Positions 39,285 to 60,737 of a stretch of DNA of 64,000 bases are shown here, one piece after another. The DNA lies in the NCBI GenBank assembly GCA_020073565.1, contig JAIQEY010000004.1, forward strand, positions 1 to 64,000, written 5' to 3'. Numbering within the stretch: position 1 is the first letter of the stretch; every line of letters starts with the position of its first letter. The stretch comes from Terriglobia bacterium. GTDB taxonomy: Bacteria > Acidobacteriota > Terriglobia > Terriglobales > Acidobacteriaceae. The notes under the pieces are model-generated. The model had not been told where the DNA came from and ran no database searches. It saw only the letters and a list, made by a program, of their open reading frames with translations. Position numbers and translations under genes: made by a program.

Positions 39285-39473
39285 GCCGTTGCTATCGCCG
39301 CCGTCCCTGTTCATTCACGGACACCCTCCGCTGAAACCGGACACCCAATTCGGTTCCCCTACACCTGCGGGATTCCGCAAGCTGCTTCGTTCTCATGCAG
39401 TTGCATTCACGACACTTTGGCGCTCGAGTTGCCTTTCTTTCCACGGAACCACATCGTCACCCAGAGGCCGACC

Positions 39474-41921: not shown

Positions 41922-41960
41922 TCTTCCAGGCGAGTGGCTCGCCTTCCGATGGCAAATCAC

Positions 41961-42135
41961 ACAGTGGGTGCCCCATCCTTCGCGGCTTTTTCGCGAAGGG
42001 TGTGTGGCGGACTGATCGCAACATGGGCTTTGCACCCCTCGAAAAGCGCGAGAACTGGCGCACCCCCGTTATTTCGGCGAATGTTATAAGACAAACCCGC
42101 TTTATACATCCCCGTTAAAAATGGCCCACCCACCT
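41961..42135. repeat. Composite hairpin repeat, copy A
   Basis: Begins with the hairpin CCTTCGCG-GCTTTTT-CGCGAAGG (about 41978-42000) next to GTGCCCCAT, and ends with a tail CCCCGTTATTTCGG...CCCCGTTAAAA.TGGCCCACCC (42066-42134). The tail matches 55407-55473 in word order. It lies between convergent genes. Confidence 0.65.
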
Positions 42136-42178
42136 TCGCTTTTCTCAGAGACCGGGCGAGATCGGCTTCATTCCGGGA

Positions 42179-43813: not shown

Positions 43814-43931
43814 AGCTTCCGCCGAGAAGAGTGAGTAGTAGGCTGATCGCGCAGCGGGCCGACACCTTCATGCCCGCGTGGCTTAAAGCAAAGAAATCGC
43901 GAGCAGCGCCCAGGAGGCGACCTGCGTGAGC

Positions 43932-45080
43932 TCAGTTTTCCAGTTCCGCTAAGCGGCAAATGAATCCCCATCCGCCGCCGAGTTCGCTGACCGCCAGCAT
44001 CAGTTCATTGCTGCCCTTCTTCAATGGAAGATAGACGGCGTCGTTCTCCGGGTTCACGATGCCCAGGAACCCGGGGTCGCGAAAGTTCTGGGCGCTTCGG
44101 CCACGGAAGAGAATCTTGCCATTCAGAAACACGCTGACGTCGTCGCTATACCCAATGTAGAGCTTCTTCACCTGGTCGCGATCGGAATCGATGCTGGTCC
44201 GCGCATACACGACCTTCATACCTGGCTGGGGTTCCAGACGCTTCGAAAAGTCACCCTGAAACGTGACCATGGGATGCGGGGCCTCGCGATAACGATAGAT
44301 CACCACAAAGCCCGGCGCCTCCGCCTCCACATCCTGCCAGTGTATTGAATCGCTCTCGGAGCGCGGGAGCGGACGCTCCAGATTCCGTTCGAGCGCATCG
44401 TACGAAGGCGACAGGCTCCACTTGGTCAGAGTGTCCGGCGGCATCGGCGGCCAGTGCCGCTCCCAGGGCGCATCGGGAGTTGTCCGTACTTCGAAATTCG
44501 AAAAATAGGTTGCGCCGGTCAGGACATATAAGGCCACCTGGCCCTTCTGCACTCCGCTTTTCAGATCGTTCATCACTAGCGCAGGCTTGTCCATGTCCTT
44601 GACATAGAGCTTTGCCTGCGCTCCCGCCACCTCCAGACGCAGATGGAACCAGACATCTTTCGGGATATCGACCGCGCCGGTGAAGCCTGGCCCGTTATAG
44701 ATTTGCCAGTTGCGGCCGGTGTTGAGAACCGGCGTGTACTGCATGGCGTCAGGAAGCCCGGACTTGTGTGGGCGGAGATAGACCTCTTCGTAGTTGGTGC
44801 CGTCAGCGGCGATCCGAAAGTCGAAACCGACAAACCCCCGGCTTGCAGAGGTTGCGACATCCACATCGACAACTCCGTCGCGCATTTCCAGGTCCTTCAA
44901 AACCGCCGCTCCGCCATCGAGCAAGAGGCATTTGCGACCCTGATATTCAGCCGCCTTGGCTTGCCCCTGCAGTTCCCAGCGCGCGGAATCTGCGGGAACG
45001 GAGAGCCTCTGCGATGTTTGGGAATGGGCCGCGGACTGAGAGAGAACAGCAAGAGCGCAAAGAGCGAGATGTCGAAGCAT
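43932..45080 (-). CDS. Secreted LamG/concanavalin-like beta-sandwich protein
   Basis: 382 residues starting at ATG 45078-45080, directly with a signal peptide (MLRHLALCALAVLSQSAAHSQ). Residues about 45-200 resemble a DUF1080/LamG jelly roll: VVDVDVATSASRGFVGFDFRIAADGTNYEEVYLRPHKSG, then LRLEVAGAQAKLYVKDMDKPALVMNDLKSG and YFSNFEVRTT. The C-terminal 150 residues form a second beta domain ending in KKGSNELMLAVSELGGGWGFICRL. Possibly binds or cleaves a sugar, but no glycosidase acid pair is identified. The frame upstream to 45242 is unlikely. Confidence 0.7.
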   Translation of the reverse strand: MLRHLALCALAVLSQSAAHSQTSQRLSVPADSARWELQGQAKAAEYQGRKCLLLDGGAAVLKDLEMRDGVVDVDVATSASRGFVGFDFRIAADGTNYEEVYLRPHKSGLPDAMQYTPVLNTGRNWQIYNGPGFTGAVDIPKDVWFHLRLEVAGAQAKLYVKDMDKPALVMNDLKSGVQKGQVALYVLTGATYFSNFEVRTTPDAPWERHWPPMPPDTLTKWSLSPSYDALERNLERPLPRSESDSIHWQDVEAEAPGFVVIYRYREAPHPMVTFQGDFSKRLEPQPGMKVVYARTSIDSDRDQVKKLYIGYSDDVSVFLNGKILFRGRSAQNFRDPGFLGIVNPENDAVYLPLKKGSNELMLAVSELGGGWGFICRLAELEN

Positions 45081-45574
45081 AGCTGGCCTGTGCCTAGGTG
45101 AACAACGGTTCCGGAACCTCAAGCCCCGGTTCCGATTACGTTGAGACTCGAATGGGTAGACGACTTGAACAGAGAATCGGTAGCAAGTGTTCTGTTGTTT
45201 GATAAGGTCACCGACCTCAAAAAAAAAACAGTTCCGTGACAAACGTATGACAACTCGCTACTCGCTCATCGATATAACCAATTTCGTGTTAGTCACTTCC
45301 CACCTAACACTGAGCTGGCGGCCCAACCACTGGAATGATTGCTAAGGTCTGCTCCAGGGTCGAGCAGGCCGGGCGCAAAACAAAGTCCCATTCAATCCCA
45401 GCGCGATACGTCTCGGCTGTCCCGGGACGTTTCGTCACCCAGGAGGCAAGACATGTAACGCATTCCATTTCGCCCTGCATGCGGCAGGCCCCCCTGACCA
45501 CGTCGCTCCAACCCCGAGGGAAAGGCAACCCCTCCTCAAAAACAAAACCAAAAATAAAATTAAGGAGATTGTTC
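45081..45574. other. Long divergent intergenic region
   Basis: 494 bp without a supported gene, between two divergent secreted-protein genes. It includes an A-tract of ten (about 45220-45229) and an A-rich leader (45537-45560) just before the ribosome-binding site of the gene at 45575. It presumably carries both promoters. No repeat family member is seen. Confidence 0.45.
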
Positions 45575-46426
45575 GTGAGAAAGATTGCAGTTGCATTCAT
45601 CGTGCTGGCCCTGTGCTCCCTCGGAGTCGCTCAGATTCCGGGCACACATAACCTTACCAAGGCATCAGAGACCGCGGCACTCCTGACTAAGAAAAGCGCC
45701 ATCGACGCAGCGACTCCCAGTCCGCTTGCAGACCCCGGATGTTCGTTTTTGTTTACCTCCGGCGCCGGCAACACGTTCTTCAGTTATTGCCTGACCACCA
45801 ACGGCAACATCACGCAGCTTAGAACGCCTGAAGGTCACTTCCAGATTTCGAACCCGATCGAAGGGTATGGCATCTGTGACGCCACTACCGGCATAGAGTA
45901 CTTCGATTATGCCTTTGAAGACAGTTTGAACTGGGGGCCAACCACGGTTGCGAGCCAGACTGCTACTTCGATGAAGTTTGTCCGCACGACCAGCGACGGC
46001 GTCTGGACTCTTACCCAGACGATCACGCAGATGGCTTCGACTTCTTCGGTCAAACTGACCATGGCGCTCAAGAACAATTCGGCCGACAGCCGCCCGGCGC
46101 TCCTGTTGCGCTACACGGATGTGGACGTCGATGACGTCCTCCAGAATAATTTCGACAGCACCCTGAACAGTGCCATGGCTTGGAATTCTTTTGGCTCGGG
46201 CGCATCTCCGTTTGGCCTGGTGCTGCAGAACGTAGGCACTCCGCCATTCCCTGATTACTTTGGGTTTGTGCAAACCATTCCGGGCATCGTGCATCCCTGT
46301 ATCCCGTTTGCCAATCGGAGCTTTGGGCCGGCGCTTGGTATCGACGGTTCGTTAGTCATGGCCTACCAGGGGATATTTCCCAAGAAGGCGACCAAGACCT
46401 TCAACATGAGCTACAAGGGTTTGTAG
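45575..46426 (+). CDS. Secreted protein of an unrecognised family, paralogue of the product at 51632-52432
   Basis: 283-residue exported protein (GTG 45575, AAGGAG at 45562-45567, signal peptide ending GVAQ). Two conserved cysteine contexts (GCSFLFTSGAG and FSYCLTTNGNITQ) are followed by IEGYGICD, YFDYAFEDSLNWGPTTV, MKFVRTTSDGVWTLTQTI and VKLTMALKNNSADSRPALLLRYTDVD. The same blocks occur in the same order at 51632-52432. The composition is beta-rich with many Thr and Asn, as in extracellular structural or adhesin-like proteins. Nothing in it indicates an enzyme. An intrinsic terminator follows. Confidence 0.7.
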   Translation: MRKIAVAFIVLALCSLGVAQIPGTHNLTKASETAALLTKKSAIDAATPSPLADPGCSFLFTSGAGNTFFSYCLTTNGNITQLRTPEGHFQISNPIEGYGICDATTGIEYFDYAFEDSLNWGPTTVASQTATSMKFVRTTSDGVWTLTQTITQMASTSSVKLTMALKNNSADSRPALLLRYTDVDVDDVLQNNFDSTLNSAMAWNSFGSGASPFGLVLQNVGTPPFPDYFGFVQTIPGIVHPCIPFANRSFGPALGIDGSLVMAYQGIFPKKATKTFNMSYKGL

Positions 46427-46448
46427 ATCAGTTCGCCATTTCGCCGCA

Positions 46449-46477
46449 CCGGCCTCGCAAGAGGCCGGTTTTCGTTT
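46449..46477 (+). terminator. Rho-independent terminator
   Basis: Stem CCGGCCTC-GCAA-GAGGCCGG (46449-46468) followed by TTTTCGTTT. It lies 22 bp after the stop of the secreted-protein gene. Confidence 0.9.
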
Positions 46478-46590
46478 CATCACGTGACTGGGTGCGAAGT
46501 GCCTCTAAAGTAGCCCACCCGCCGATTCCGGTGAAGTCGATTGCATGTCACATCACTGACTCCGCTTTGCCCATGTGTTAATGCCGTGGC

Positions 46591-47244
46591 ATGAAGGTCG
46601 CATGGGTAGTTTCCTTGAAGGTGGCTGGCCTTGCCGTGGTGTTTGCATGTGCGCGACTGGCATTCAAGCACACCTTTTCGGCCTTTTCGGGCCTCGGGCT
46701 GATGTGGGGAGCTGTGGCGCTCGTTCCGCTCCTCGCCGGTTGTGGACGATGGCTCTTGGACCGCCGGCCGACACCCGAGCGAGCGAGGCTCCTGACGATC
46801 GCCATTCACTACCTGGAAATGATTTTGCTCGGCTGTGCGCTCATCATTGCCTTCCAGGTCACACAAGCGCATCCCATCGTTCGGATTCCTTTCCCCCACA
46901 CCATCAGTTGGCCCGCCATGCAGATTTTAGCTATCGTTGCAACGCTCACGGTGTTGAATCTCGCGATTGGGGGGCTCGGGCTGCCGTTCGCGGTGGTCCT
47001 GAGCAAAAAACTCGCCGTCAGTTGGCTCTACCGCCACAGCCGTAACCCGATGCTCCTGTCCTGTCTGCTGTTCTTCACTGGGGCGGCAGTGTGGCTCCAG
47101 TCTCTCCATGCGATCTTGTGGACCGTCCTGTGGCTTGCACCTGCCTGGATCCTTTACGTTCGTATCTATGAAGAGCGCGAACTGGAAGTGCGCTTCGGAG
47201 AATCCTATGTCCGGTACAAGGCCCAAACGCCGTTCTTCCTGTAA
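46591..47244 (+). CDS. Isoprenylcysteine methyltransferase-like membrane protein
   Basis: 217-residue polytopic protein with about six membrane helices. The C-terminal block RHSRNPMLLSCLLFFTGAAV...YVRIYEERELEVRFGESYVRYKAQTPFFL is the SAM-binding signature of the ICMT/PEMT superfamily (RHxxNP, EE, Y..Y...VP-like end). Substrate unknown; bacterial members methylate small thiols, lipids or isoprenoids. A second, different member lies at 48351-49130. Confidence 0.8.
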   Translation: MKVAWVVSLKVAGLAVVFACARLAFKHTFSAFSGLGLMWGAVALVPLLAGCGRWLLDRRPTPERARLLTIAIHYLEMILLGCALIIAFQVTQAHPIVRIPFPHTISWPAMQILAIVATLTVLNLAIGGLGLPFAVVLSKKLAVSWLYRHSRNPMLLSCLLFFTGAAVWLQSLHAILWTVLWLAPAWILYVRIYEERELEVRFGESYVRYKAQTPFFL

Positions 47245-47475
47245 CCAGAGTGCGCGATGTTCCCTCCCTTGTAAGGGCGTAGCCGGAGATACAGCGAACG
47301 CCGTCAAGAAACTCCTCCATACGAGCAAAGGCGACTGCTGTGGAGCACGCCGCTTCCGCACCGATTTCCTGGACGAGGCAGGTCCGGTAAGAGCGAATGG
47401 GAGACGATCCAACCTCCAGCCCCGTAAAGCGGTGTCGGCGGTTCGGCAGACGCGCCCGCCCCACCCGCTCCATCC
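47245..47475. other. Intergenic region with repeat fragments
   Basis: No gene supported. It contains GTGTCGGCGGTTCGGCAG and CGCCCGCCCCACCC words shared with 52.7 kb, which suggest a decayed copy of the dispersed composite repeat. Confidence 0.45.
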
Positions 47476-48195
47476 CTACTCTCCTTCCGGAAGGTCCACG
47501 TCATATTGCTTTCCTAGAAATGCAAAATACCAAAGACAGAGCCCTAGAAAATACGAGACTCTAGAGGTCCACTGATACCTTTCTTCTTGTTTGGCTACCT
47601 CCGTGTCGGCTTGGTCCGATAACCTAGTACCGAAGCTGAGGATATCCCAATCAAGTGCTGAAGCCTCGTTCGCAATGGACTTTGCGGTCTCATAGTCCGT
47701 TTGCGTCAACGTATGCTTTTCTAGGGATTTGCCGACATTTTCGAAGGTATCGCCCCGCTTGATATTGCGTTGTTGAATCTGATCGAGAGTGCTCTTCTCT
47801 TTTTCAGATAGCTCAAGAACAGAGGCCAGGCGAGATAGAGCGTCCGCCATGTGCAGTGAAGCGATGCTTGCTCTAAAATCAACTTTCAGCTGCTCCTTGA
47901 CCTTAGCTTCGAGTTGGTCCGGTGGGATGGCCCTCCCGCGGGAAGCGTCATCTTCAACCTCAATGTTCTTAATGATCTCATCGGAAGCCCGAAGCGTGTC
48001 TATCCGCAGATAAAACATATTGCGGGCAGTCGCTACGGTATCAGCTTCCTCTTTGGCCTTGTCCCGTATCTGTTCCCTTACAGACAATGACAACAGTAGG
48101 AACAGAGACACGACATAAAGGAACCCACGTCGGTTGCGCTTCAGAAAGTTCTGATTCTTGTTTTTCGGGTGCCCTGTGTTCGGATGTGCAGGCAT
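47476..48195 (-). CDS. Membrane protein with two TM segments flanking a coiled-coil region
   Basis: 239 residues. A basic N-terminus (NKNQNFLKRNRRG) precedes a first transmembrane helix (FLYVVSLFLLLSLSV, about 25-40). About 165 mostly helical, charged residues follow (EQIRDKAKEEADTVATARNMFYLRIDTLRASDEIIKNIEVED...), then a second helix (VSYFLGLCLWYFAFLG) and a short tail. The topology suggests a large periplasmic helical hairpin. No family recognised. GGAGG lies 6 nt before ATG 48193-48195. It is located in the repeat-rich accessory region. Confidence 0.65.
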   Translation of the reverse strand: MPAHPNTGHPKNKNQNFLKRNRRGFLYVVSLFLLLSLSVREQIRDKAKEEADTVATARNMFYLRIDTLRASDEIIKNIEVEDDASRGRAIPPDQLEAKVKEQLKVDFRASIASLHMADALSRLASVLELSEKEKSTLDQIQQRNIKRGDTFENVGKSLEKHTLTQTDYETAKSIANEASALDWDILSFGTRLSDQADTEVAKQEERYQWTSRVSYFLGLCLWYFAFLGKQYDVDLPEGE

Positions 48196-48260
48196 GTCAG
48201 TCCTCCGCGATGGCGCCCCTTCCGCGAAGGCATTCTAGCTTACAAACCTCTTCCGCCGGC

Positions 48261-48317
48261 GAATGTTGATGTTATGCACAAAGCCCACTCATCGCAAGTG
48301 CGCGATGAGTGGGGCAC
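48261..48317. repeat. Composite hairpin repeat, copy B (second hairpin only)
   Basis: GAATGTTGATGTTATGCACA followed by the hairpin GCCCACTCATCGC/GCGATGAGTGGGGC. Nearly identical to 56016-56073. It lies downstream of the mddA-like gene, whose last codons are also copied at 56085-56126. Confidence 0.8.
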
Positions 48318-48350
48318 CCGGCAGGGAGGCTTCCAAGCAGTCGAGACAAC

Positions 48351-49130
48351 CTATGTTTCGACTTCCGCCGCGGGTGTGACAGCTTTGATTTGATCTCGTC
48401 TCCCAGAGAAAGCAGTCGGCAGGATCATCGGCACGCGGCGGCGATACTCGGCGTATTCTCGATGAACTTGCACCAGGTCTCGTTCCTCGAATTGAATCGC
48501 GATCAAGATGTACGCGGTGGTGGCAACCGCGAAGACAAAATGGGCCGAGGTCATCACCGGCGCCGACCAGAACACCACCAGCCATCCCACATACAGCGGA
48601 TGCCGCACGAGGCGGTAAGGCCCGGGCGTGCGGAATCTGAGAGACGTGTAGCTGTGGCCGCGCAAATGCAACCACACTTGCCGCAGTCCGAACAAGTCAA
48701 AATGGTTGATGAGAAATGTGGTGACCAGCACGACAACCCAGCCGAAGGCATAGAGACTCAGTAATGCCACGCGTCCGATGCTGCTCTCGACATTCCAGAT
48801 CACGCCACCCATTGGCTGCCACTGCCAGAACAGCAGGAAAAGGGCGGCACAACTGAAGAGCATGTAGGTGCTGCGCTCCGCCGCCGCTGGGACGAGCCGA
48901 GTCCAGGCCGCCTTGAATCCTGGCCGCGCCATGACGCTATGCTGAACCCCGAACAGGACGAGGAGCGCAAGATTGAGCGCCAATGCCTCGAGAAACGGCG
49001 CTTGCGGCTGAGAATCGATGGAACGGGGAACGGCGAAGTTTCCGAGAAAAGCGGCCAGGTACAGGAAAGTCACCAGCGAGGCCACGTAACAAATAACTCC
49101 ATACAAAAATACTGTGATGCGGCTCAACAT
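48351..49130 (-). CDS. mddA: Methanethiol S-methyltransferase-like membrane protein (MddA family)
   Basis: 259-residue membrane protein of the NnrU/ICMT-like fold with about six helices. The blocks LLVLFGVQHSVMARPGFK, TTFLINHFDLFGLRQVWL, YRLVRHPLYVGWLVVFWSAPVMTSAHFVFAVATTAYILIAIQFEERDLVQVH and YRRRVPM agree with MddA, which methylates methanethiol to dimethylsulfide using SAM. Good AAGGAG site before ATG 49128-49130. The last ten codons (AVTPAAEVET) recur as a fragment at 56 kb. Function is by family resemblance only. Confidence 0.75.
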   Translation of the reverse strand: MLSRITVFLYGVICYVASLVTFLYLAAFLGNFAVPRSIDSQPQAPFLEALALNLALLVLFGVQHSVMARPGFKAAWTRLVPAAAERSTYMLFSCAALFLLFWQWQPMGGVIWNVESSIGRVALLSLYAFGWVVVLVTTFLINHFDLFGLRQVWLHLRGHSYTSLRFRTPGPYRLVRHPLYVGWLVVFWSAPVMTSAHFVFAVATTAYILIAIQFEERDLVQVHREYAEYRRRVPMILPTAFSGRRDQIKAVTPAAEVET

Positions 49131-49249
49131 TTCTTCTCCTTTGTTGAATGTGTGGTGGGGTGCGATCCACTCTCTTCTTCCAAACGTCAGGCAACGGCTC
49201 CAGTTCGCGCGGGGCCAAGACTCAATCCGACGCGCGCTTGGAGGAAGCC

Positions 49250-49738
49250 CTACTTTCCCAGCCGTGCCGAGAGTGTTTTGAACCCGATGATGATGGTGTC
49301 AGTGTCGGCAAAGACAGTACCGCCACAGAGTTTGAGCACGTTTCGCCCTTTCACCAGGCCGTAGTCGCCGGGCATCAGCACCCACTGAAACGTGATCGAG
49401 GCGTAGGTATCGTCGGCAGGGGCGGAGGCCGGGATGGTGCCGGGCCCATAGAACGTGCATGGGCCGCCGTTCACGCTCAGCCCAGTAAGGAATGGAGCAT
49501 TCGACTGGTACTCCGTACTCCAGGTGACAACCACGGGGACGAGGGTATCCGGCTCGTTCACCCGGATTGACTCGTCCCAGATAGAACAACACCGTCCCGT
49601 GTGAGCGCCGTCGGCGATGCTACGCAAGACCTGACTCTTGGGGACGGCAAAGGCCGTATTTGAGGTTGTCGCAATCACGCAGGCCAAAGCGGCCAGGAGG
49701 ACCAGCCTCCGTTTATTTGCTATCGAAAATGCTTTCAC
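49250..49738 (-). CDS. Secreted hypothetical protein, 162 aa
   Basis: Starts with GTG 49736-49738 (AAGGAG 8 nt upstream). Signal peptide about residues 1-31 (KRRLVLLAALACVIATTSNTAFA). The mature part contains several Cys (GRCCSIWDES, GGPCTFYGPG, VLKLCGG) that could form disulfides, and alternating beta pattern (LVPVVVTWSTEYQSNAPFLTGLSVN, YASITFQWVLMPGDYGLVKG, DTIIIGFKTL). Not assigned to any family. It is divergent from the winged-helix regulator gene. Confidence 0.65.
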   Translation of the reverse strand: MKAFSIANKRRLVLLAALACVIATTSNTAFAVPKSQVLRSIADGAHTGRCCSIWDESIRVNEPDTLVPVVVTWSTEYQSNAPFLTGLSVNGGPCTFYGPGTIPASAPADDTYASITFQWVLMPGDYGLVKGRNVLKLCGGTVFADTDTIIIGFKTLSARLGK

Positions 49739-49969
49739 GTCGTTTCTCCTTCAATGTGCAGGCTTATTTGCTTAGAATTGGACTACTCGGGGAATCCCAA
49801 GTCGACCGGGACCCCCGGCCGACTCTCACGGGCGCATGCGGCATAATCCGGGTTCGTCTTCCCGTTTTGTGTCGCTACCTTAGGGCGTGCAAGCCTCGGA
49901 AGTCATGGGAATGCGCCGGGATTTTTCCGGGATTGTGGGGGCTGTCTCCGGAAAGCTGGGCGTAGCTAG

Positions 49970-51610
49970 ATGGAATCAAACTTCAACTTCGGCAACTATC
50001 GGTTCGAAACGGAGAGTGGACGTCTGTGGTCCGGCGCGGAGGAGCTCAGGCTCACGCCCAAGGCTTCGGCAGTGCTGAAGATTCTGGTGATGCGCGCGGG
50101 GCAGCCGGTCACGAAGGAGCACCTGTTTGCGTCCGTGTGGAATGGAACGGCCGTCAGCGATGACGCTCTCACCTCGTGCATCCAGGAGTTACGCAAAGCC
50201 CTGGCAGATGATGCCAGGCAGCCCCGTTTCATCGAAACCCGGCATCGCCGTGGATACCGATTCGTCGCCCCGATTTCCGAGCCGCCGAGCGCACCCGTCG
50301 TCGATTCGGTCCCGCCGGGGCGCGATCTTCCAGCCATCGCTGTCCTTCCGTTCGCGGACATGAGCCCCGCCCGTGACCAGGACTACCTCTGCGAAGGTCT
50401 CGCCGAGGAACTGATCAACGCCCTCACTCGCATTGACGGCTTGCGGGTAGCATCGCGCACGGCGTCTTTTCAGTTTCGCAGCCCCGGTGAGGATATCCAG
50501 GCGGTAGGCCGGCATTTGGGCGTGGGGACCTTGCTAGAGGGCAGCGTCCGGAAGTCGGACAATCGTCTTCGGGTGACGGTTCAGCTCATTGAAGTCGCCA
50601 CCGGCTTTCACCGCTGGTCCCAGCGGTTCGACCGCACGCTCGACGACGTTTTGGCCATCGAGGACGAGATCGCCGAACATGTCGTCACCTCCGTGGGCAG
50701 AAGCGTCCTGCGTCACCATGAAAAGCCGTCGGTGGTGCGGCCTCATACACGCGCGGAGGCCTATGAGTACTACCTGCGGGGACGGCAGCACCTCCACCGC
50801 ATGACGAAGGCGGACCTAGAAAAAAGCGGCGAGCTGTTCGAATGCGCGATCAAACAGGATGCAGCCTACGGACCGGCATGGGGGTGTCTGGCGGCGGTAC
50901 ACGCCACCCTCTACGAGTGGTTTGGCTCGAAAGAAGATGATCTTTCCACCGCCGAACGCGCCAGTCAAAAAGCGCTGGAACTGGCGCCGAGCCTGGCCGA
51001 GCCGCATGTGGCGCGCGGGCTCGCGCTGTCGTTGTCGCGACGCTATGAGGAGGCGGCGCAGGAATTCGAACAGGCTATCCACCTCAATCCTAATTTCTTC
51101 GAAGCGTATTACTACTTCGCTCGCTCCTGCTTCGCACACGGTGAAATTCAACGTTCCGCGGAACTCTTCCGTAAGGCGGCAGAGGCCCGTCAGGAGGACT
51201 TCCAAAGTGCGATGCTTCAAGGCCAGTCCTTGCGCATGCTGGGCCGCATCGAAGAGGCGCGGGCTGCGACGCGGGAAGGCATTCGTCGCGCCGAACGCAC
51301 TCTGATGCTGAACCCGACCGATTGCCGGGCCCTTTCCCTGGGCTCAGGCGCGCTCTTCGAAACTGGCCAGGAAGCGCGCGCGCTCGAATGGTCGCAACGA
51401 TCGCTCGACCTCTATCCCGACGACATGAGCACCCTGATCAACGCCGCCTGTCTGCACGCCAAGGCACGACAAAAGGAAGAAGCCCTGGCGCTGCTCGAGC
51501 GCGTTTTTGCGCGCGGCTGGGGAAAGCGCGACTGGATCGAGCAAGATGCGGATTACGACATCCTTCGCGACGACCCGCGCTTTCAAAAGTTGGTGGCTGC
51601 GCTCAAATGA
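49970..51610 (+). CDS. OmpR/CadC-type winged-helix regulator with FlgO-like and TPR domains
   Basis: 546 residues. Residues 1-100 form an OmpR-type DNA-binding wing (FRFETESGRLW-like start, LRLTPKASAVLKILVMRAGQPVTKEHLFASVW, SCIQELRKALADD, IETRHRRGYRFVA). Residues about 118-245 match the adenylate-cyclase/FlgO-like TolB-type block (AIAVLPFADMSP, YLCEGLAEELINALTRIDGLRVASRTASFQFR, GVGTLLEGSVRKSDNRLRVTVQLIE). TPR repeats fill about 265-546. No membrane helix separates the parts, unlike CadC. Such proteins are expanded in acidobacteria; signal and targets unknown. Confidence 0.88.
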   Translation: MESNFNFGNYRFETESGRLWSGAEELRLTPKASAVLKILVMRAGQPVTKEHLFASVWNGTAVSDDALTSCIQELRKALADDARQPRFIETRHRRGYRFVAPISEPPSAPVVDSVPPGRDLPAIAVLPFADMSPARDQDYLCEGLAEELINALTRIDGLRVASRTASFQFRSPGEDIQAVGRHLGVGTLLEGSVRKSDNRLRVTVQLIEVATGFHRWSQRFDRTLDDVLAIEDEIAEHVVTSVGRSVLRHHEKPSVVRPHTRAEAYEYYLRGRQHLHRMTKADLEKSGELFECAIKQDAAYGPAWGCLAAVHATLYEWFGSKEDDLSTAERASQKALELAPSLAEPHVARGLALSLSRRYEEAAQEFEQAIHLNPNFFEAYYYFARSCFAHGEIQRSAELFRKAAEARQEDFQSAMLQGQSLRMLGRIEEARAATREGIRRAERTLMLNPTDCRALSLGSGALFETGQEARALEWSQRSLDLYPDDMSTLINAACLHAKARQKEEALALLERVFARGWGKRDWIEQDADYDILRDDPRFQKLVAALK

Positions 51611-51631
51611 CGCCCCGCCACGAATCCGTTC

Positions 51632-52432
51632 TTAGATCGGCTTATACGTCATGGTGACCGTCTTGGTGGCTCCCTTTGGCACTGTGATCGCATAAACGTG
51701 TCCGAGCGAGCCATCTCCGACAAAAGCAAAATTGTTGATAAACGTCACGTAGTGGCACGGATCCGGACCTGTGGGGACGCTGAACACCGTTCCATTGTGC
51801 GCAAACGTGAATGTGTTGGTGGTCAGTCCCAGGCCCCAGCTGGCGCCGGGCTCCTGTCCAAAGGCAGAATTGAAGCTCGAGACAAACTCGTCGTTGATTG
51901 CCACCGGACCCGCATTCACATTGGCAACCCGTAGCAGGGCTACATTCCGGCTGATGGTACTCAGATTCTTGAGCGCCATGGTGATCTTCACCGATCCGGG
52001 ACCCATCGCGCCTGCCTTGATTTGAACGACGGTCTCGGTTAATTGCCAAATGCCATCGCCGGTAGTGCGGACGAACTTCGCGGTGGTGGCGTTCGGGATG
52101 GTCACCGTAGTTGCTCCCCAGTTGCCGCTGTCAATGGAGGCGTAGTCGTAATACGACACGTTCGGGGTCACATCGCAAAAGCCATAGCCTTCCACGGGAC
52201 CTCCGTTGTTGATGTACTCGAACCCCGAGGGGCTGTCGAACTGCACAATATTGCCATTGGCACTTAGGCAGTATCGAGTGAAGGTGGCCAAAGGCCCGGA
52301 ACTGTACTGGAACGAGCAAGCCGTGATGGCCGGCGCCTCCGTTCCGGCCTGCGGCTGGTTGGCCGGCTGGCCGAACGCCAGCATCGAAAATGCGAGTACC
52401 GCAAAGAGAAGGGTCGCTTTGCTGAGTGTCAT
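51632..52432 (-). CDS. Secreted protein, paralogue of the product at 45575-46426
   Basis: 266 residues with a signal peptide (MTLSKATLLFAVLAFSMLAFGQ) and AGGAG just upstream of ATG 52430-52432. Shared blocks with the paralogue: TRYCLSANGNIVQF, VEGYGFCD, YYDYASIDSGNWGATTV, KFVRTTGDGIWQLTETV, VKITMALKNLSTISRNVALLRVANV and a C-terminal TKTVTMTYKPI. Both are exported, beta-rich and of unknown function. The tail-to-tail position with the TPR regulator (22 bp gap) may be incidental. Confidence 0.7.
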   Translation of the reverse strand: MTLSKATLLFAVLAFSMLAFGQPANQPQAGTEAPAITACSFQYSSGPLATFTRYCLSANGNIVQFDSPSGFEYINNGGPVEGYGFCDVTPNVSYYDYASIDSGNWGATTVTIPNATTAKFVRTTGDGIWQLTETVVQIKAGAMGPGSVKITMALKNLSTISRNVALLRVANVNAGPVAINDEFVSSFNSAFGQEPGASWGLGLTTNTFTFAHNGTVFSVPTGPDPCHYVTFINNFAFVGDGSLGHVYAITVPKGATKTVTMTYKPI

Positions 52433-52802
52433 GGTTTTCTCCTGAGATATGGTGGTGCTGCGTTCCTTGCTTGAGACTCTCGCGCGGGGGATGCTCAAGT
52501 CTCTTCGTGCGCTTGCGATTCTGCCGGGCAACGGCTTCGGACTCGGGCCGGACGCACCTCAACATCACTTGTTTGCGAGCAGACTCAAAGCCCGGGGGGG
52601 GATTCGACGATCGGGGCTCGACAGATTGTGGGAGATTCTGAACCAGAGTCGTTCGCGTGTCAAGACGGGCTGCGGAAAGCGGAGACGAACGATGTCGGCG
52701 GTTCGGCAGGCCACTTCTCGAAAGGCGCGAAAAGTGGCGCAACCCCAGTTCGTTCGGTCAATGTTAAAAGACTAGGCCCACCCGCCAACCCGGCCAATAT
52801 GC
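52433..52802. other. Intergenic region with composite-repeat fragments
   Basis: 370 bp without a supported gene. The segment 52741-52790 matches the composite repeat tail (CCCCAGTT..TTCGGTCAATGTTAAA...GGCCCACCCGCC). GATGTCGGCGGTTCGGCAGG near 52691 matches 47.4 kb. A seven-G run lies at about 52593-52599. Confidence 0.55.
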
Positions 52803-55029
52803 TTACGCATGAGGCTTAACACCGAAGCCCAATCCGACGCCGTATACATCGGGCATAGGCTCATACCAGTCTTCCTGCGGTCGCGGAGCGAGTTTATCCG
52901 GACCGCCGAAGAAGCAGTATTCGCAGAGCGCCTTGCGGTGACGGAGGAGATCTTCCCATGGAAAACCGAGATCATCGCGATACCTAAGAGGTGCAAAGTT
53001 CCTCTTGTTCGCTCTCGTCGCAATCACCACCGCATTCGCTTCAGCCTTCACCTTTAACATTTTGCAACGCGCCGCTACTGCAGTCCGGTGGATCCGTGAG
53101 TTCCGGATATGCTGCCAATAATTCGGTTTGTCCGGGGTCGAGTCAGGCGCCACAAAAACGACCCAATGGGGTCCCCATTCAACGAAGCCGTGCGATCGAT
53201 CGAGAATGTCCGCAATCGTGAGCACCTGCTGACCCGACCATATTTCTCCCACTTGGCTCCCCAGTGTAATCGTAGCCACGCAGCTCACTGTGAAAGCATT
53301 GACCGTGTAGAGTTCCTCGCTGTGATGATAAAGCACGGGACCGTTGGCGGGGCCAGCATCGTAGCGGAGAATCGGATTCGCCACAATCGCGCCTGTGTCG
53401 TTGCGAGTGACTTGCCACGATAGCATCAGGTTATTACCAGCCATTTTGGCCAGATCATTACGCAACTTAAGCGCAATCTGGATCGGGTGACGGTCGCTCG
53501 CAGACCACGCTTCGGGCGAGATAACGGCGGCAGGCTGTTCCTTAGCATCATCCCAGTTGATCCAAGTCTTGATGCCGGCGTCAATGCTTTCCGCTGTAAA
53601 TGACATGTAGTGCATCATCCCGTCCCAGCGCGGGAACGTAGTGTTAGGAAGAGGTGACGACCAGGGAGATGGCAAGGTTGCGCTATTGGCAGATCCCTGT
53701 AATTGACCCTGCGCTCCGGCACCTATATTGCCGGCATCTGCCTGATCAATTCCGTTTTGAACTGACTGAACGAAGTGGGACGCAAACTCGAGGAACGACG
53801 TGTTCCACATGCTCAGGAAAAGACCAATAAAGGAAAGCACGTGGAAAACAAATTCAAAAAGTCCCAGGACGAAGTCGGCCCAGAAACCCAGGTCAACGTC
53901 AACGAGCGCAACGTACATTCTCCAGCTGTCGGGCTGCAAGAAGTTCGTCGGTCCATCCCATGTTTGCAGGTAGGGCTGAATGTAGGCATCGCCATTCCCA
54001 TCGAAACCCAAGGCGGTGACGTTGAAATGCAGCCTAAGGCCGTCTTCGCGGCCACGCAGCGGCTTGTCGAACTGGCTATAGCCAAGGCTGATCCAGTTCA
54101 ACACCACCATTTTGTCGACGCCGGCTACTTCGATCTTCTTGATTTTGGTGCCCGCGATCCTTGGCGAAACTTGAGTGGCAATGATCTGGGATACCACATC
54201 CATGTTCAGCACGAACGCTATCTGGCTGCCCACAGGTTCGCTTACCCGCTGGAGGATCGGAGGCGATGAGAGACTGGTGGTCTGGTAGACAGTGCGGTAA
54301 TAGACTATGCCATTGCCGCGTATCGATATGAGGTCTACTAGTTGGTTGAAGTCCCCCTGCGTGAGCCCCGCAAAATCGAGAGCTACTGTGATCGCTTTTT
54401 CCAGCGGACGCGCCACCACACGACTTGCGGACACGTAGATCGTGAACCAATCGAACAAGGAGACACCCGAATCCTTAAAATCGGCGTGTTCCGTGTGCGA
54501 AAACTGTGTGCTCAGAAGCGGTGGAGACGCAACTAACGGAGTCAAGGCGCGCACGAACGCATTCAGGATCGCAAAGAACTGAGGCCCTTGCAGCAGGTTC
54601 AAAATCACGGGTGGCAACCCGCCCCCAGCCGAGCTGGTGACTTGCAGTTCCGTAATACTCGTTTGGTTTGCGTTTAGCGTTAGTACAACCTGGTTGTTCT
54701 GGATCTGCGGTACCACGACCGTATTTCCAGTCGCCGTAAACTGCAGCGTGAACTGGCGCATGGACTGGCCGGCCTGCTGAATTTTCGCGGTGGTCCGGAA
54801 GGTGAAGTGAACGGTAACGAAATTTGATGGATTTTGATGGAGCTCTACCGTCGGTGGGTCCATCTTGCAGTATGCCGGCAAAGGTCACTGCGTTCGGCCC
54901 TGAGCCCAGGGTCTGAGGCATGGGGCAAAAATATGGGCCCTGCACCTGCTGGAAATAGGTAGCAATGACCTTGTTAACGACATCCTCGGTCAGCGTCGCA
55001 GCGGCCGCGAAGCCCGCATGTCTTGCCAT
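52803..55029 (-). pseudogene. Large unknown protein gene, apparently split by a frameshift
   Basis: The product starts MARHAGFAAAATLTEDVVNK (ATG 55027-55029, GAGGTGG upstream) and reads sensibly to ...FAGILQ. A 1-base shift near 54861-54867 (CAAGATGG) moves the sensible frame to MDPPTVELHQNPSNFVTVHF, which runs about 687 residues to 52803. Without the extra G the two join as ...GILQMDPPTVEL. The body is beta-rich in its first 330 residues, then has a hydrophobic segment (FWADFVLGLFEFVFHVLSFIGLFLSMW), and a C-terminal half with a Trp-rich beta domain and a basic/Cys-containing tail (KALCEYCFFGG). No family recognised. Alternatively two genes, with the second starting at ATG 54861-54863. Confidence 0.6.
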
Positions 55030-55530
55030 GGGCCACCTCGCAACTTAAGAAAAAAAAGCGCGTGGTTACAGGAAGGGTTAGCGAGGTTCTCACCTCCGCG
55101 AGCTTCTCTCCAGACCTAGAACTCAGACAATCGCTGAGACGAAGACTGACGAGCTGCTGCTTCCGCTCCTACGAGTTCTTTCGAGACCCGCTTCCCACGC
55201 ACGCAGATTCTAGGAGGGTTGTACTTTTGCGTCAAGCTGTTCTTGTTTACTGGCGACGTTAGCCTGCCGGGTGCCGGGCGCCCATACATTCACGTCTTTT
55301 GCGAATGTGTGGGCGAGGGCTGCGCGACGCTGGCGGACGAATCTTGATGCTATGCGCGAAGCCCACTCATCGCATAGTGCACGATGAGTGGGGCATCCGG
55401 TGTACCCCCAGTTATTTCGGTCACTGTTAAAGGAGAAGTCCGTGTTATGGTCCCCGTTAGAGTGGCCCACCCGCCCCCGTCTAGAAAGACAATTAGGTTA
55501 TGGGAGAATAGCCTTGGAGGTCTGCGCAGC
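55030..55530. repeat. Intergenic region carrying composite hairpin repeat, copy C
   Basis: The repeat spans about 55263-55480. Hairpin 1 is CCCATACATTCACGT/GCGAATGTGTGGG (about 55281-55313). Hairpin 2 is GCCCACTCATCGC/CGATGAGTGGGGC (about 55361-55394). The tail CCCCAGTTATTTCGG...GTGGCCCACCCGCC follows (55407-55473). The first 230 bp show nothing recognisable. Confidence 0.75.
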
Positions 55531-55929
55531 ATGAGAACGGTCGAGAGTTTTGCTGACGACCTGAGGACGAGGTATGAAGGATGCCTCTGGCGCGGCCGGG
55601 CGAACTATTGCGCGGCGTACCTTTTTCTCGTCGTTGCGGTCTGTAGCAGTGCCGTTGCGACGTTGTCGGTCGCCCTTGACCTGTGGCCGAGGGCGGTGAA
55701 CGCGGTTCTAGCGGCTGTGCCCGGCGCGATGTACTTGGTCAATCGGCAGTTTCGTTTCGAACAGCGATCCAAATGGTGGTTTGAAAAATTCTATGTAATT
55801 GAGGGCCTATATCGAGGGCTCGTTCGCGAAAATCGAGACGAAGCTGAAATCAGTAAGGAACTCACACTTCAATCGAAGACACTAGCAGGCCGGTGGCCCG
55901 GTTTCGGCGAAGCACCGAAGACGAAATAA
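55531..55929 (+). CDS. Two-TM protein resembling SLATT-type effectors, 132 aa
   Basis: Starts MRTVESFADDLRTRYEG (ATG 55531, GGAGG 10 nt upstream). Two transmembrane helices (about residues 27-48, AAYLFLVVAVCSSAVATLSVAL, and 55-72, AVNAVLAAVPGAMYLV) are followed by a cytoplasmic helix FRFEQRSKWWFEKFYVIEGLYRGLV and a charged tail. This order (amphipathic helix, two close TM helices, then an aromatic 'W..K/Y..E.L' helix) resembles SLATT-domain membrane proteins found in nucleotide-activated conflict systems. The match is by eye and tentative. It is flanked on both sides by composite repeats and converges with the SEFIR-radical SAM gene. Confidence 0.6.
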   Translation: MRTVESFADDLRTRYEGCLWRGRANYCAAYLFLVVAVCSSAVATLSVALDLWPRAVNAVLAAVPGAMYLVNRQFRFEQRSKWWFEKFYVIEGLYRGLVRENRDEAEISKELTLQSKTLAGRWPGFGEAPKTK

Positions 55930-55949
55930 CAGCAAGGTTCATTCTGACT

Positions 55950-56126
55950 GCGGGGTGCCCCACACATTCGCGTCTTTTGCGATGTGTGGGCGAGGACCGT
56001 TCGACGATGGCAATTGAATGTTGATGGTGTGCGCAAAGCCCACTCATCGCAAAGTGCGCGATGAGTGGGGCACTCGCGCTGTCCAGACAAACTATGTTTC
56101 GACTTCTGCCGTGGGTGTGACAGCTT
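55950..56126. repeat. Composite hairpin repeat, copy D, with a captured gene 3' end
   Basis: Hairpin 1 CCCCACACATTCGC/GCGATGTGTGGG (about 55958-55990), spacer, then hairpin 2 GCCCACTCATCGC/GCGATGAGTGGGGC (about 56038-56071). It is followed by 42 bp (56085-56126) matching 48344-48385 at 39 positions. On the minus strand this encodes AVTPTAEVET-stop, the C-terminus of the mddA-like product, with no gene body attached. Confidence 0.8.
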
Positions 56127-56157
56127 AGAAGTGAACACACCCGCCGTACCACAGCTC

Positions 56158-59091
56158 TCATATCCAAACCGGCTTGTTGTCGGCCGTACCGAACACAAAG
56201 TTGTTTGGATCCCGCTCGTAATGACGGAACAATCGGTTTATACCGATGTTGTGCTGGCAGTATCGGGTACATTCCCCACAGGGGGCATAGTTTCCATCAG
56301 GTCGAATTACGGTCAGCTCGTTTCTCTTTTTTCGATACGGTTCTGCGTTCCACACCTGTTGAAAGGTGCTTTCGAGCACATTGCCCAGTGCATGGTGAGC
56401 CCGCAATTTCCTGCTTTCCGGATCCGATCCATGATTGTCCCTATAGAGATGACAGCATGGATAGACTTGCCCGTCCACATCGATCAACGCAAAGATAAAT
56501 GGCATGAAACAGCGAAGCTGATTCTTCGTATAGAATTCGCGTAGCGGAACGCCGTCCGTAGCGCTCTTTTCCTCGAAAATGCCCTGGGCAAAACAACGCC
56601 GCAGGTAGGCGAGGTTGTTGCCAGGCTGTTCACTCAGTTGGGAGCTCCACAAGAAACGGCGCAGGTCCGTGAATTCTTCTACGGTCGGCAGAAAATCGGG
56701 TGCTTTCGCTAGCGACTGGCGACCTCCGGTTGCGAGCTTGAAGTTGACCTGCGCAATGCCTAACGTCTCATGAATAAACTCCGTGAGCAGACGCAAGTCG
56801 CTACCGATGTTGCACTCCTGAAGCGTGACAGTCGCTGATAAGAATTGGCGGTACGCGTCGTCATCATGAATCCGACTGCGAAAGTATCTGCAGAACTCTT
56901 GCAGCCGTTCGATGCGGATTTGCTCACCCTTGAGCGGATGTCGAATGCGCTCATCGTCTTCGGGAAGTCCGTCCACGGAGACCGCAACCCATGAAACGCA
57001 GTCGTAAATTGCCTGCAGCAATTCCCCTCGAAACTGCTCGCTGTCAGAAGCACTCGTTCCGTTCGTCAACAAACCAATAGACAATTTGTTGCTTTTGGCG
57101 CTCCGAAGAAGTCGGGTGATGTCGTTTCTCATCAGAGGCTCGCCACCCGAGAAAATGCAGGCACCCACACCAAAATCGGCGAGTTCTTTGAACACCTTCT
57201 CCCATTTTTCCACCGAGAGCCCTTGCACCTTTTCTAAGTGATGGTCGCACATTTCACAGTATGTGCTGCAGATCCCGGAGACCTGAAGCTGAACGCAAAG
57301 CGGCGGGGGGAATACTTCGAGTTCGGTGTCTTCTTTGTCTTGGAGGCGTCGAACGGTTTGAAAGTGGGGTCGGAGTTTGGAGAGGTAGTTCGCGGGACGG
57401 TTGTTCCTCGACGTAAGGCCTTCATCTCTGAGGACTAGAATGTCACCTGGCCCCGGCGGTTCCTCGGACAATTCCTTGGCTTGTTGAAAACGGTGCACAG
57501 TCCTCCGGTACAGACCGTGAGCCATACATTGGCAGGTATCATCGTAGACTTGCGAACAAGCAAAAAGAAGGGCTGGCTTTCCTTCCCCTAATGTTGCGTT
57601 CACGTCGTAGATTACGAGCAGTGTCTGTCGCGATGCGTCTTCTTCTCCCGGCAGTACCACCGTGGTACACACAATCCCGTCCACAACTGCTTGGTCTGTT
57701 TCTCGGATCTCAATCGGCGTTTGGTTGGAAGATAATGACGACTTGAGTTCTCGGAAGGCTAGCCGCGACCGCGGAGTGTCCTTCTTGATCTCCGTCTGTT
57801 CCTGCGGACTTAAGACCTGGCAGGATTCAGGAGAGCTTAGAAGGAACTGAAACCGGACCTGCAATTCTTCGGCGGCGTTTTTGATCTCCGAAACAAGACG
57901 CGTCCATGAAATCAGGGTTCTACCCGCCGCCAGCACAGTCGATTTGGGAGCAGCGAGACCGATCAGTCTGGACGGTGGAAAGTCGTGGGCAAGTTCTCTC
58001 CGGTTGGGATACAACCGCACTAGGCCTCTGCCAGAAAAGTCGGTCGGCGCCGACCTGATAAGGCGCCTCACCCGGAACACAAAACAGTTTGACCATTTAC
58101 TTCGTTTGAACCGATGTGGTGGAAGGAGCGAGTCATCTTTCACCTTCCCGGAGACAAATATCTCATCATCGGTAGCCGACTCGCATAGGGTTTTGGCTTC
58201 GCTGTAAACAAGACCACCAAAAGGACGGCGGCTATCAACCTCGCCGGTTGCCACCCCGATCCTGATATGAAAACGGGGCCCGGAGGCGCGAATGATTTCT
58301 CGCTCCGCACCTAAGATGCAGGCCTCTGCCATTCTCAAAGACTCTGGGCAGAAATTGGGAGAGGCATCAACGAGAGCGACGATGTCGTTGCCGATCACCT
58401 CCCGTTTCGAAGCGCTGGCACAAGAATCATGAATCAGTTCTGATGGGCGGTCGTCGCCTTCAGGACCTGAAATCTTGAAGTAAATAACAGCTGCGGTTTT
58501 CGGAAAAGGAGGGGTTGGTCTCAGCTCGTGAGAGAAATCTTGCCTGCGTCGCAACTGCATCAAAGAGCCGGTGGCTCGTGTAGGAGGCGGCTGTGATGGT
58601 GTCTCAGCTGTCGGATCGAGTAGGGGGCCGATAGGACTAGCCTCCTTCCTCCAACCGGTAAGAATACGGAACAGATCTCTGTAATTGGATTCCACACTGA
58701 CATTGAAGTGAGGGTATGAACGAAGCTCTATGGGTATCTGCTGTAAGTCACTGGAAGCAAACACTATCGGGATATACTTTTTGTTTTTGGCTCCGGAGTA
58801 ATAGAACTCTTGGTTAATGACAAAGCCCTCAAACGTTGTGCCGAGACCGATCCCTGGATGTTCTTTCCTTTGAAACCGACGTTGGTATGTTTCGCTGCAG
58901 ACGACGAGACAAAAATCTGCTTCCTGCAACTGGTCCTTGCACCATTGCGGCCATCCGTCTGCCGGCCATGATTCTGCCTGATCGACTCTGCAATCAATTC
59001 CGTTCCGGCGCAGCCTTTCGCTTAACTCCCAAACGCGATCCATGTGCCCTTGCGAGTCGTGGCTGTAGCTGATAAAAACGCGGATAGCCAT
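56158..59091 (-). CDS. SEFIR/TIR-like domain fused to degenerate cyclase-like and radical SAM/SPASM domains
   Basis: 977 residues from ATG 59089-59091 (MAIRVFISYSHDSQGHMDRV). Residues 1-145 match SEFIR (FISYSHD, LRRNGIDCRVD, WPQWCKDQLQEADFCLVVCSETYQRRF). Residues about 198-345 resemble a class III nucleotide cyclase (VIGNDIVALVDAS, FHIRIGVATGEV, GGLVYSEAK...DEIFVSGKV), but the first metal Asp position reads YFKISG, so catalysis is doubtful. Residues about 385-535 are unassigned (AAGRTLISWTRLV). Residues about 595-790 form a radical SAM core with CSTYCEMC (Cys608/612/615) and FSGGEP. The C-terminal SPASM-like part has Cys861, 879, 880, 938, 941 and 945. Function unknown; immune-type sensing combined with peptide or small-molecule modification is one possibility. 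Confidence 0.85.
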   Translation of the reverse strand: MAIRVFISYSHDSQGHMDRVWELSERLRRNGIDCRVDQAESWPADGWPQWCKDQLQEADFCLVVCSETYQRRFQRKEHPGIGLGTTFEGFVINQEFYYSGAKNKKYIPIVFASSDLQQIPIELRSYPHFNVSVESNYRDLFRILTGWRKEASPIGPLLDPTAETPSQPPPTRATGSLMQLRRRQDFSHELRPTPPFPKTAAVIYFKISGPEGDDRPSELIHDSCASASKREVIGNDIVALVDASPNFCPESLRMAEACILGAEREIIRASGPRFHIRIGVATGEVDSRRPFGGLVYSEAKTLCESATDDEIFVSGKVKDDSLLPPHRFKRSKWSNCFVFRVRRLIRSAPTDFSGRGLVRLYPNRRELAHDFPPSRLIGLAAPKSTVLAAGRTLISWTRLVSEIKNAAEELQVRFQFLLSSPESCQVLSPQEQTEIKKDTPRSRLAFRELKSSLSSNQTPIEIRETDQAVVDGIVCTTVVLPGEEDASRQTLLVIYDVNATLGEGKPALLFACSQVYDDTCQCMAHGLYRRTVHRFQQAKELSEEPPGPGDILVLRDEGLTSRNNRPANYLSKLRPHFQTVRRLQDKEDTELEVFPPPLCVQLQVSGICSTYCEMCDHHLEKVQGLSVEKWEKVFKELADFGVGACIFSGGEPLMRNDITRLLRSAKSNKLSIGLLTNGTSASDSEQFRGELLQAIYDCVSWVAVSVDGLPEDDERIRHPLKGEQIRIERLQEFCRYFRSRIHDDDAYRQFLSATVTLQECNIGSDLRLLTEFIHETLGIAQVNFKLATGGRQSLAKAPDFLPTVEEFTDLRRFLWSSQLSEQPGNNLAYLRRCFAQGIFEEKSATDGVPLREFYTKNQLRCFMPFIFALIDVDGQVYPCCHLYRDNHGSDPESRKLRAHHALGNVLESTFQQVWNAEPYRKKRNELTVIRPDGNYAPCGECTRYCQHNIGINRLFRHYERDPNNFVFGTADNKPVWI

Positions 59092-59258
59092 AGTCGGAAG
59101 CCATGGTAATCCCAAAGCGGCGTTCTTTTCAAACCGATTGGCTATGTTGCCTCAACCCTTGGCCTTATCCCAAACCAGCCCCGTATAATACTGAGTTAGT
59201 TATTTCCGGCGAAGAGCTTGGCTGGTCCCGCCCGGTCCGACGCACAGGAGATTCCATC

Positions 59259-60692: not shown

Positions 60693-60737
60693 AGCTCGGA
60701 CACGGTTCCACCCGCTCCTTCATTTACACTTCTAACC

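Follow-up and report, generated by a model that had tools for sequence, protein, structure and literature searches.

Bacterial SEFIR and TIR domains are known chiefly as effectors that consume nicotinamide adenine dinucleotide (NAD+) or as adaptors. According to the relevant passages of PMC12774641 and PMC12926258, SEFIR systems deplete or cleave NAD+ on activation, and in the corresponding parts of Kaur et al. 2020 (PMC7159879) the nucleotide-signal modules of conflict systems include, as alternatives, cyclic nucleotide monophosphate (cNMP) cyclases, PNPases and TIR-type domains. The same parts of that paper describe several vWA-side cyclases as inactive, name FGS as the most frequent effector of iSTAND systems, and predict a peptide-modifying role for the radical S-adenosylmethionine (SAM)/SPASM enzymes of conflict systems. 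In a 64,000-nucleotide stretch of contig JAIQEY010000004.1 from the Terriglobia bacterium assembly GCA_020073565.1 (the whole of this stretch is referred to below as the window) we encountered a gene whose 977-residue product joins a SEFIR domain to a cyclase-like domain and a carboxy-terminal radical SAM/SPASM part (Table 1). The fusion is an unusual assembly of already known modules; in a search of open-access papers, the relevant passages of PMC7159879, PMC8195603, PMC10853773 and PMC12926258 describe no such SEFIR-radical SAM fusion. The reading that we tentatively favour, with a probability of roughly 0.4, is that of a SEFIR conflict-type protein in which the radical SAM/SPASM part would be a modifying effector and the probably dead cyclase-like domain a regulator.

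An initial annotation, made from the sequence alone, had placed SEFIR, radical SAM and SPASM domains in a single open reading frame (ORF) of 977 codons, and comparison with Pfam bears this out. SEFIR (PF08357) scores 56.2 bits at residues 4-131 (cut-off 23), Radical_SAM 52.9 bits at residues 604-740 (cut-off 29.5) and SPASM 48.5 bits at residues 861-942 (cut-off 21.5), whereas Guanylate_cyc, which the annotation had named alongside these three families, gives no match. The cyclase-like block (approximately residues 196-341) follows the SEFIR domain, and a further block (approximately 366-590) precedes the radical SAM core. No stop codon interrupts the frame, an outcome with a chance of about 10^-18.6 at the base composition of the gene, while each of the five remaining frames across the gene contains 27-38 stops; an alternative TTG start lies eight codons upstream of the ATG and would give a protein of 985 residues. 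The G+C content at third codon positions (GC3) is 0.56, 0.55, 0.56 and 0.61 in four parts of the gene, evenly below that of the flanking conserved ORFs (0.75 at 38508-39284, 0.74 in fumC and 0.72 in cinA), so that the parts share one composition. On these figures a single acquired gene would fit the sequence better than a product of recent joining.

The SEFIR assignment is also reached by PADLOC, in which bSEFIR scores 123.5 bits at residues 4-156, a match that covers positions 40-193 of the 412 in the profile and not its whole length. The full protein was modelled with AlphaFold2 from an alignment of 41 rows that covers essentially the SEFIR part alone. The predicted local distance difference test (pLDDT) score of this model is about 96 at residues 1-140 and 57-86 (in blocks of ten) at residues 201-310, and falls below 50 for most of the remaining residues. 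In a fold search with the full model the listed chains are all SEFIR/TIR or cyclase structures; those that match the SEFIR model include 9ot1 (the IL-17RA/RB/ACT1 assembly, Z 20.3), 4nux (IL-17RA, Z 17.7) and the prokaryotic SEFIR domain 5y8e (Z 16.5). Glu88 is kept in all 41 rows of the SEFIR alignment and sits in a modelled helix (residues 83-98), which we take to be the site of the catalytic glutamate in TIR NADases.

In the radical SAM core the CxxxCxxC motif is exactly where it had been read (Cys608, Cys612 and Cys615) and is invariant in all ten rows of alignment A2; GGEP is likewise retained, and the motif is apparently intact. The SPASM-like cysteine set given in the initial annotation is sustained at the level of the Pfam domain, but two usual cysteine positions are absent: a full SPASM set comprises seven cysteines, of which the fusion retains Cys861, Cys879, Cys938, Cys941 and Cys945, with Cys880 in addition. 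Among the best 25 of 51 NCBIfam families no maturase equivalog exceeds its cut-off, the top match being the tungsten-enzyme maturase TIGR04317 (65.5 bits against a cut-off of 380), and the radical SAM part therefore falls outside the families named there. A viperin was considered and rejected on NCBIfam and PADLOC scores (NCBIfam viperin_w_prok, 38.4 bits against a cut-off of 180). With the radical SAM part as query, the best match in other genomes scores 48 bits.

The cyclase-like block is recognised mainly by its predicted fold. No match to Guanylate_cyc or any other Pfam family is found in this block at E<=1 with the whole protein or at E<=10 with the fragment, but residues 196-341 of the full model match CyaC (1wc0/1wc1; Z 12.8, root-mean-square deviation 3.0 over 132 residues) and CyaB (3r5g; Z 12.3). 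Since the alignment contains no other rows at residues 196-322 (stray tails of at most 14 SEFIR rows occur at 323-328 and beyond), this fold is predicted from a single sequence. A separate model of residues 186-562 is of low confidence (mean pLDDT 42.7); its best 50 matches are GGDEF, cyclase and Cas10-type chains together with one Rev1 chain, all within approximately 1.4 Z units (best Z 11.2), and include at Z 11.0 the Pseudomonas aeruginosa structure 6yii, titled as a class III adenylyl cyclase-like ATP-binding protein. Compared by profile with 32 cyclase domains from the phylum, the block scores 22.9, a value that none of 200 shuffled sequences and none of 400 random ORF fragments attains; the hhalign probability is just 4.2%. 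The predicted class III assignment of residues 196-341 rests on the fold match of the full model and on the register of the motifs.

Class III cyclases are marked by two metal-binding aspartates and a VNxAxR motif. The first metal-binding position, which the initial annotation had given as changed, reads as Lys206 (YFKIS, 204-208) by eye, beyond the region aligned by hhalign; the second position also reads as changed, being Asn235 (VIGND, 232-236) in the weak hhalign register, with an aspartate one residue later. VYSEAKTL stands where VNxAxR is expected, again in the weak hhalign register. As both metal-binding positions and VNxAxR read as altered, the domain is probably not a cyclase enzyme and is probably catalytically dead; a working class III cyclase was rejected on these residues. 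The annotated class III cyclase-like block is upheld by its modelled fold, but not by Pfam.

The middle block, described from the outset as unassigned, has no match in Pfam, NCBIfam or plasmids at residues 366-590 and nothing credible in 396 genomes of the phylum. Structure prediction recovers the SEFIR fold and a cyclase fold at residues 196-341, but leaves this block mostly below a pLDDT of 50 in both the full and the fragment models. Three weak matches in the phylum were dismissed as chance: one (L013) has four internal stops and no phmmer match to any part of the fusion at E 0.01, another (L014) lies in an ORF of 124 residues, and a third (L015) aligns to a protein that, judged by eye, resembles those of MutS type. 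A phospholipase-D-like or DUF5919-like identity was considered and dropped, given the lack of a Pfam or NCBIfam match and the low pLDDT; a search for DUF5919 was uninformative, finding none in 60 genomes but also none in 14 controls.

The gene is present in one of 24 genomes of the genus and missing from the other 23. Searches of 396 genomes of the phylum and 398 of the family, scoring two candidates per genome, gave five other genomes that match at E 1e-20, confined to the SEFIR part, and ten others that match at E 1e-15, respectively. There is no full-length homologue among the best 30 of 143 plasmid matches, none of which reaches 80% coverage (32% for the best placed), and the full-length fusion was not found in phages, or in viral contigs searched with exact peptides and SEFIR patterns (10 loci). 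A scan of GTDB genomes by SEFIR patterns yielded 336 relatives, the best 80 of which represent 78 loci. In the phylum, genus, family, plasmid, phage, viral and GTDB searches no relative was found with more than one part of the fusion.

The SEFIR relatives show that this domain is a mix-and-match module with exchangeable carboxy-terminal parts. In a Pfam scan of ten of them, four (L027, L037, L045 and L051) have TPRs and an NTPase domain (AAA_22 or NB-ARC) over the cut-off, L050 has TPRs with AAA_16 slightly under it (30.9 against 32.6 bits), L034 matches STAND below threshold (22.8 bits, cut-off 27.1) and L026 and L070 have SEFIR/TIR alone. The two others carry an FGE-sulfatase domain, which we take to be the FGS of Kaur et al.: L028 (7944-10121), from a Methanosarcina metagenome-assembled genome, encodes SEFIR-PNP_UDP_1-FGE-sulfatase, and L007 (388-2013), from a member of the phylum, encodes SEFIR-FGE-sulfatase. 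These proteins provide a precedent for a nucleotide-acting domain and/or a carboxy-terminal enzyme of modifying type after SEFIR. Among 102 SEFIR ORFs searched with phmmer, FGE occurs in four and PNP in four, the two jointly in L028 alone. The 95 SEFIR loci compared (with at least one duplicate ORF pair, L008 = L080) include one other locus with a radical SAM gene elsewhere in the fetched stretch (1/94); a cyclase profile scan of the loci found none, but is insensitive, as it also missed the fusion's own cyclase-like domain. Six loci (L029, L031, L061, L074, L078 and L082) hold two or three SEFIR ORFs each.

The gene lies upstream of fumC in an interval that is variable in the genus. The distance from a conserved block (35-39.3 kb) to fumC is approximately 19.9 kb in the window and 2.4-9.5 kb in the five of seven genus-relative stretches that span both; one of these five (L139) also shares a piece of the interval at 51.6-52.7 kb. 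The fusion gene is accessory, as had been annotated. Other genes of the interval encode a MacB-like permease, an S41 peptidase, two PEMT-type methyltransferases near each other (46591-47244 and 48351-49130) and a winged-helix/TPR regulator, together with unknown ORFs. The neighbouring gene encodes a protein of 132 residues and is convergent with the fusion gene, so that the two do not form one operon. Its annotation as SLATT-like finds no profile support in Pfam, NCBIfam or PADLOC, and it has no plasmid match; the two transmembrane stretches are seen by eye. It is flanked by two copies of a REP-like palindromic repeat, CCCACTCATCGC...GCGATGAGTGGG, a further copy of which lies at 48255-48296. 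The region is repeat-rich, in agreement with the initial annotation: the core of the repeat (<=1 mismatch) occurs six times in the window against 0.14 expected, and the copies match L139 as well. Two overlapping minus-strand ORFs at 52803-55029 resemble, by eye, one frameshift-broken gene. On the far side of the fusion gene fumC and cinA are adjacent (59259-61982), whereas in the relatives with listed matches to both genes these are on separate contigs, and a rearrangement breakpoint near 60.7 kb is possible.

Table 1. Positions in the window of the fusion gene, its parts and the surrounding features.
Feature	Coordinates	Strand	Evidence
977-residue fusion gene, whole	56158..59091	-	ORF with ATG start, domain matches
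SEFIR domain, residues 4-156, invariant Glu88 in helix 83-98	58624..59082	-	Pfam, PADLOC bSEFIR, fold match
Degenerate class III nucleotidyl-cyclase-like domain (predicted), residues 196-341	58069..58506	-	Fold match, profile comparison
Block without family match, residues 366-590	57322..57996	-	Pfam, NCBIfam, plasmid and phylum-genome searches
Radical SAM core, residues 604-740, Cys608/612/615 and SGGEPL 648-653	56872..57282	-	Pfam, motifs
SPASM domain, residues 861-945, Cys 861, 879, 880, 938, 941, 945	56257..56511	-	Pfam, column comparison
Variable interval holding the fusion gene, conserved block to fumC	39285..59180		blastn against seven genus-relative stretches
132-residue neighbour, two hydrophobic stretches, SLATT-like by eye alone	55531..55929	+	Sequence reading; no profile match
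REP-like palindromic repeat, copy 1	55305..55395		
REP-like palindromic repeat, copy 2, between neighbour and fusion gene	55982..56072		

If the protein belongs to a conflict system, its SEFIR domain would assemble in response to a trigger and perhaps cleave NAD+, the cyclase-like domain may have a regulatory part, binding a nucleotide or dimerising, and the modification by radical SAM/SPASM would fall on a protein, a peptide or the fusion protein itself. The succession of SEFIR, nucleotide-type module and modifying enzyme fits the grammar of conflict systems, and the case for immunity rests on this family syntax; we infer the immune role, as we do the switching-on of the enzyme by assembly and the substrate. 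Several observations weigh against the favoured reading. The fusion is a singleton with no homologue in the searches above, radical SAM is found in the SEFIR ORF of none of the 94 other SEFIR loci (95 with this gene), and the FGE and PNP precedent is limited to a minority of SEFIR ORFs (4 + 4 of 102). The SPASM domain has gaps in the two columns that contain cysteine in 6/9 and 7/9 of the other rows. Ten further ORFs from the interval give no PADLOC match, and no convincing gene for a precursor peptide or substrate was seen by eye among the small ORFs of 55-59.3 kb. The immune-like sensor with radical SAM output put forward in the initial annotation has in its favour the domain outline, the modularity of SEFIR proteins and the parallels with conflict systems, but not a PADLOC match or a precursor peptide. 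A more specific version, which we consider unlikely, is a single-chain immune switch: infection would lead to SEFIR assembly, the dead cyclase would read a nucleotide signal and the radical SAM/SPASM part, once turned on, would place a radical-derived covalent modification on a host or phage protein. Were this true, radical chemistry would be the direct output of SEFIR assembly, parallel to the SEFIR-FGE proteins; assembly-driven immunity could then couple to radical protein chemistry, and a cyclase-like domain may read nucleotides instead of making the signal. The value of the finding is limited by its singleton status.

The nearest competitor to the modifying-effector reading, little less probable than it, makes the SEFIR domain the killing effector, which would cleave NAD+ on assembly, and the rest of the protein a sensor, in which the dead cyclase would bind a nucleotide and the radical SAM/SPASM part would sense SAM, the redox state or a molecule made on infection. 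The invariance of Glu88 and its place in the modelled helix fit the TIR catalytic glutamate, if the presumed equivalence holds, and the NTPase and TPR carboxy termini of four of the ten scanned relatives are of a type usually taken as sensors. The NAD+ depletion or cleavage reported for activated SEFIR systems (relevant passages of PMC12774641 and PMC12926258) points the same way; however, a mere sensor would not need the radical SAM motif and most SPASM cysteines that are intact here. It is improbable that the protein is a non-immune maturase of peptides or metalloenzymes with the SEFIR and cyclase-like domains as scaffold or regulatory modules only. The top named NCBIfam match is to a maturase, and the lack of PADLOC matches in the interval would suit such a role, but that match (TIGR04317) is far below its cut-off, like the others among the best 25 of 51, no client or precursor gene was recognised nearby, and the gene is patchy and accessory. 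For a gene that is a singleton in every search and has an orphan middle block, one might suspect a chimeric assembly, or a fusion that arose recently by chance and may not function; we regard this as improbable too, with 977 codons in one frame without a stop, a GC3 that is alike in the four parts and lower than the 0.72-0.75 of the flanking genes, and radical SAM motif residues that are retained.

In comparison with described systems, the fusion shares its amino-terminal family and fold with bacterial SEFIR proteins (PF08357, PADLOC bSEFIR), but it matches only positions 40-193 of the 412-position bSEFIR profile and carries a radical SAM domain that the ORFs of the other 94 SEFIR loci lack. 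Its cyclase-like domain has a predicted fold in common with the class III cyclases CyaC and CyaB and with 6yii, but the metal-binding aspartates and VNxAxR are not kept. Prokaryotic viperins, too, are radical SAM enzymes, and act in defence; the fusion adds a SPASM domain, and scores 38.4 bits against the 180 of the viperin model. In Pycsar, a cyclase is paired with a TIR effector. The use of the cyclase in phage defence is described in PMC11224242. The Pycsar enzyme is a working cyclase encoded by a separate gene, whereas the cyclase residues of the fusion are read as lost and the SEFIR partner lies in the same chain. The FxSxx/VMAP ternary systems, in the corresponding parts of PMC7159879, have a radical SAM/SPASM enzyme alongside a TIR-bearing protein in a conflict system. 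There the peptide, the TIR AP-ATPase and MoxR-vWA are encoded by separate genes, while the fusion is one polypeptide; MoxR, vWA, a TIR AP-ATPase and an FxSxx peptide were not seen among the interval ORFs scanned with Pfam, the small ORFs of 55-59.3 kb having been read by eye. Further parallels are the SEFIR-PNP-FGE and SEFIR-FGE proteins (L028 and L007), where a nucleotide-acting domain and/or one of protein-modifying type likewise comes after SEFIR, the fusion having a cyclase-like domain for PNP and radical SAM/SPASM for FGE-sulfatase. Formylglycine is the product both of FGE and of anSME-type radical SAM/SPASM enzymes, a shared outcome that would tighten the parallel with FGE.

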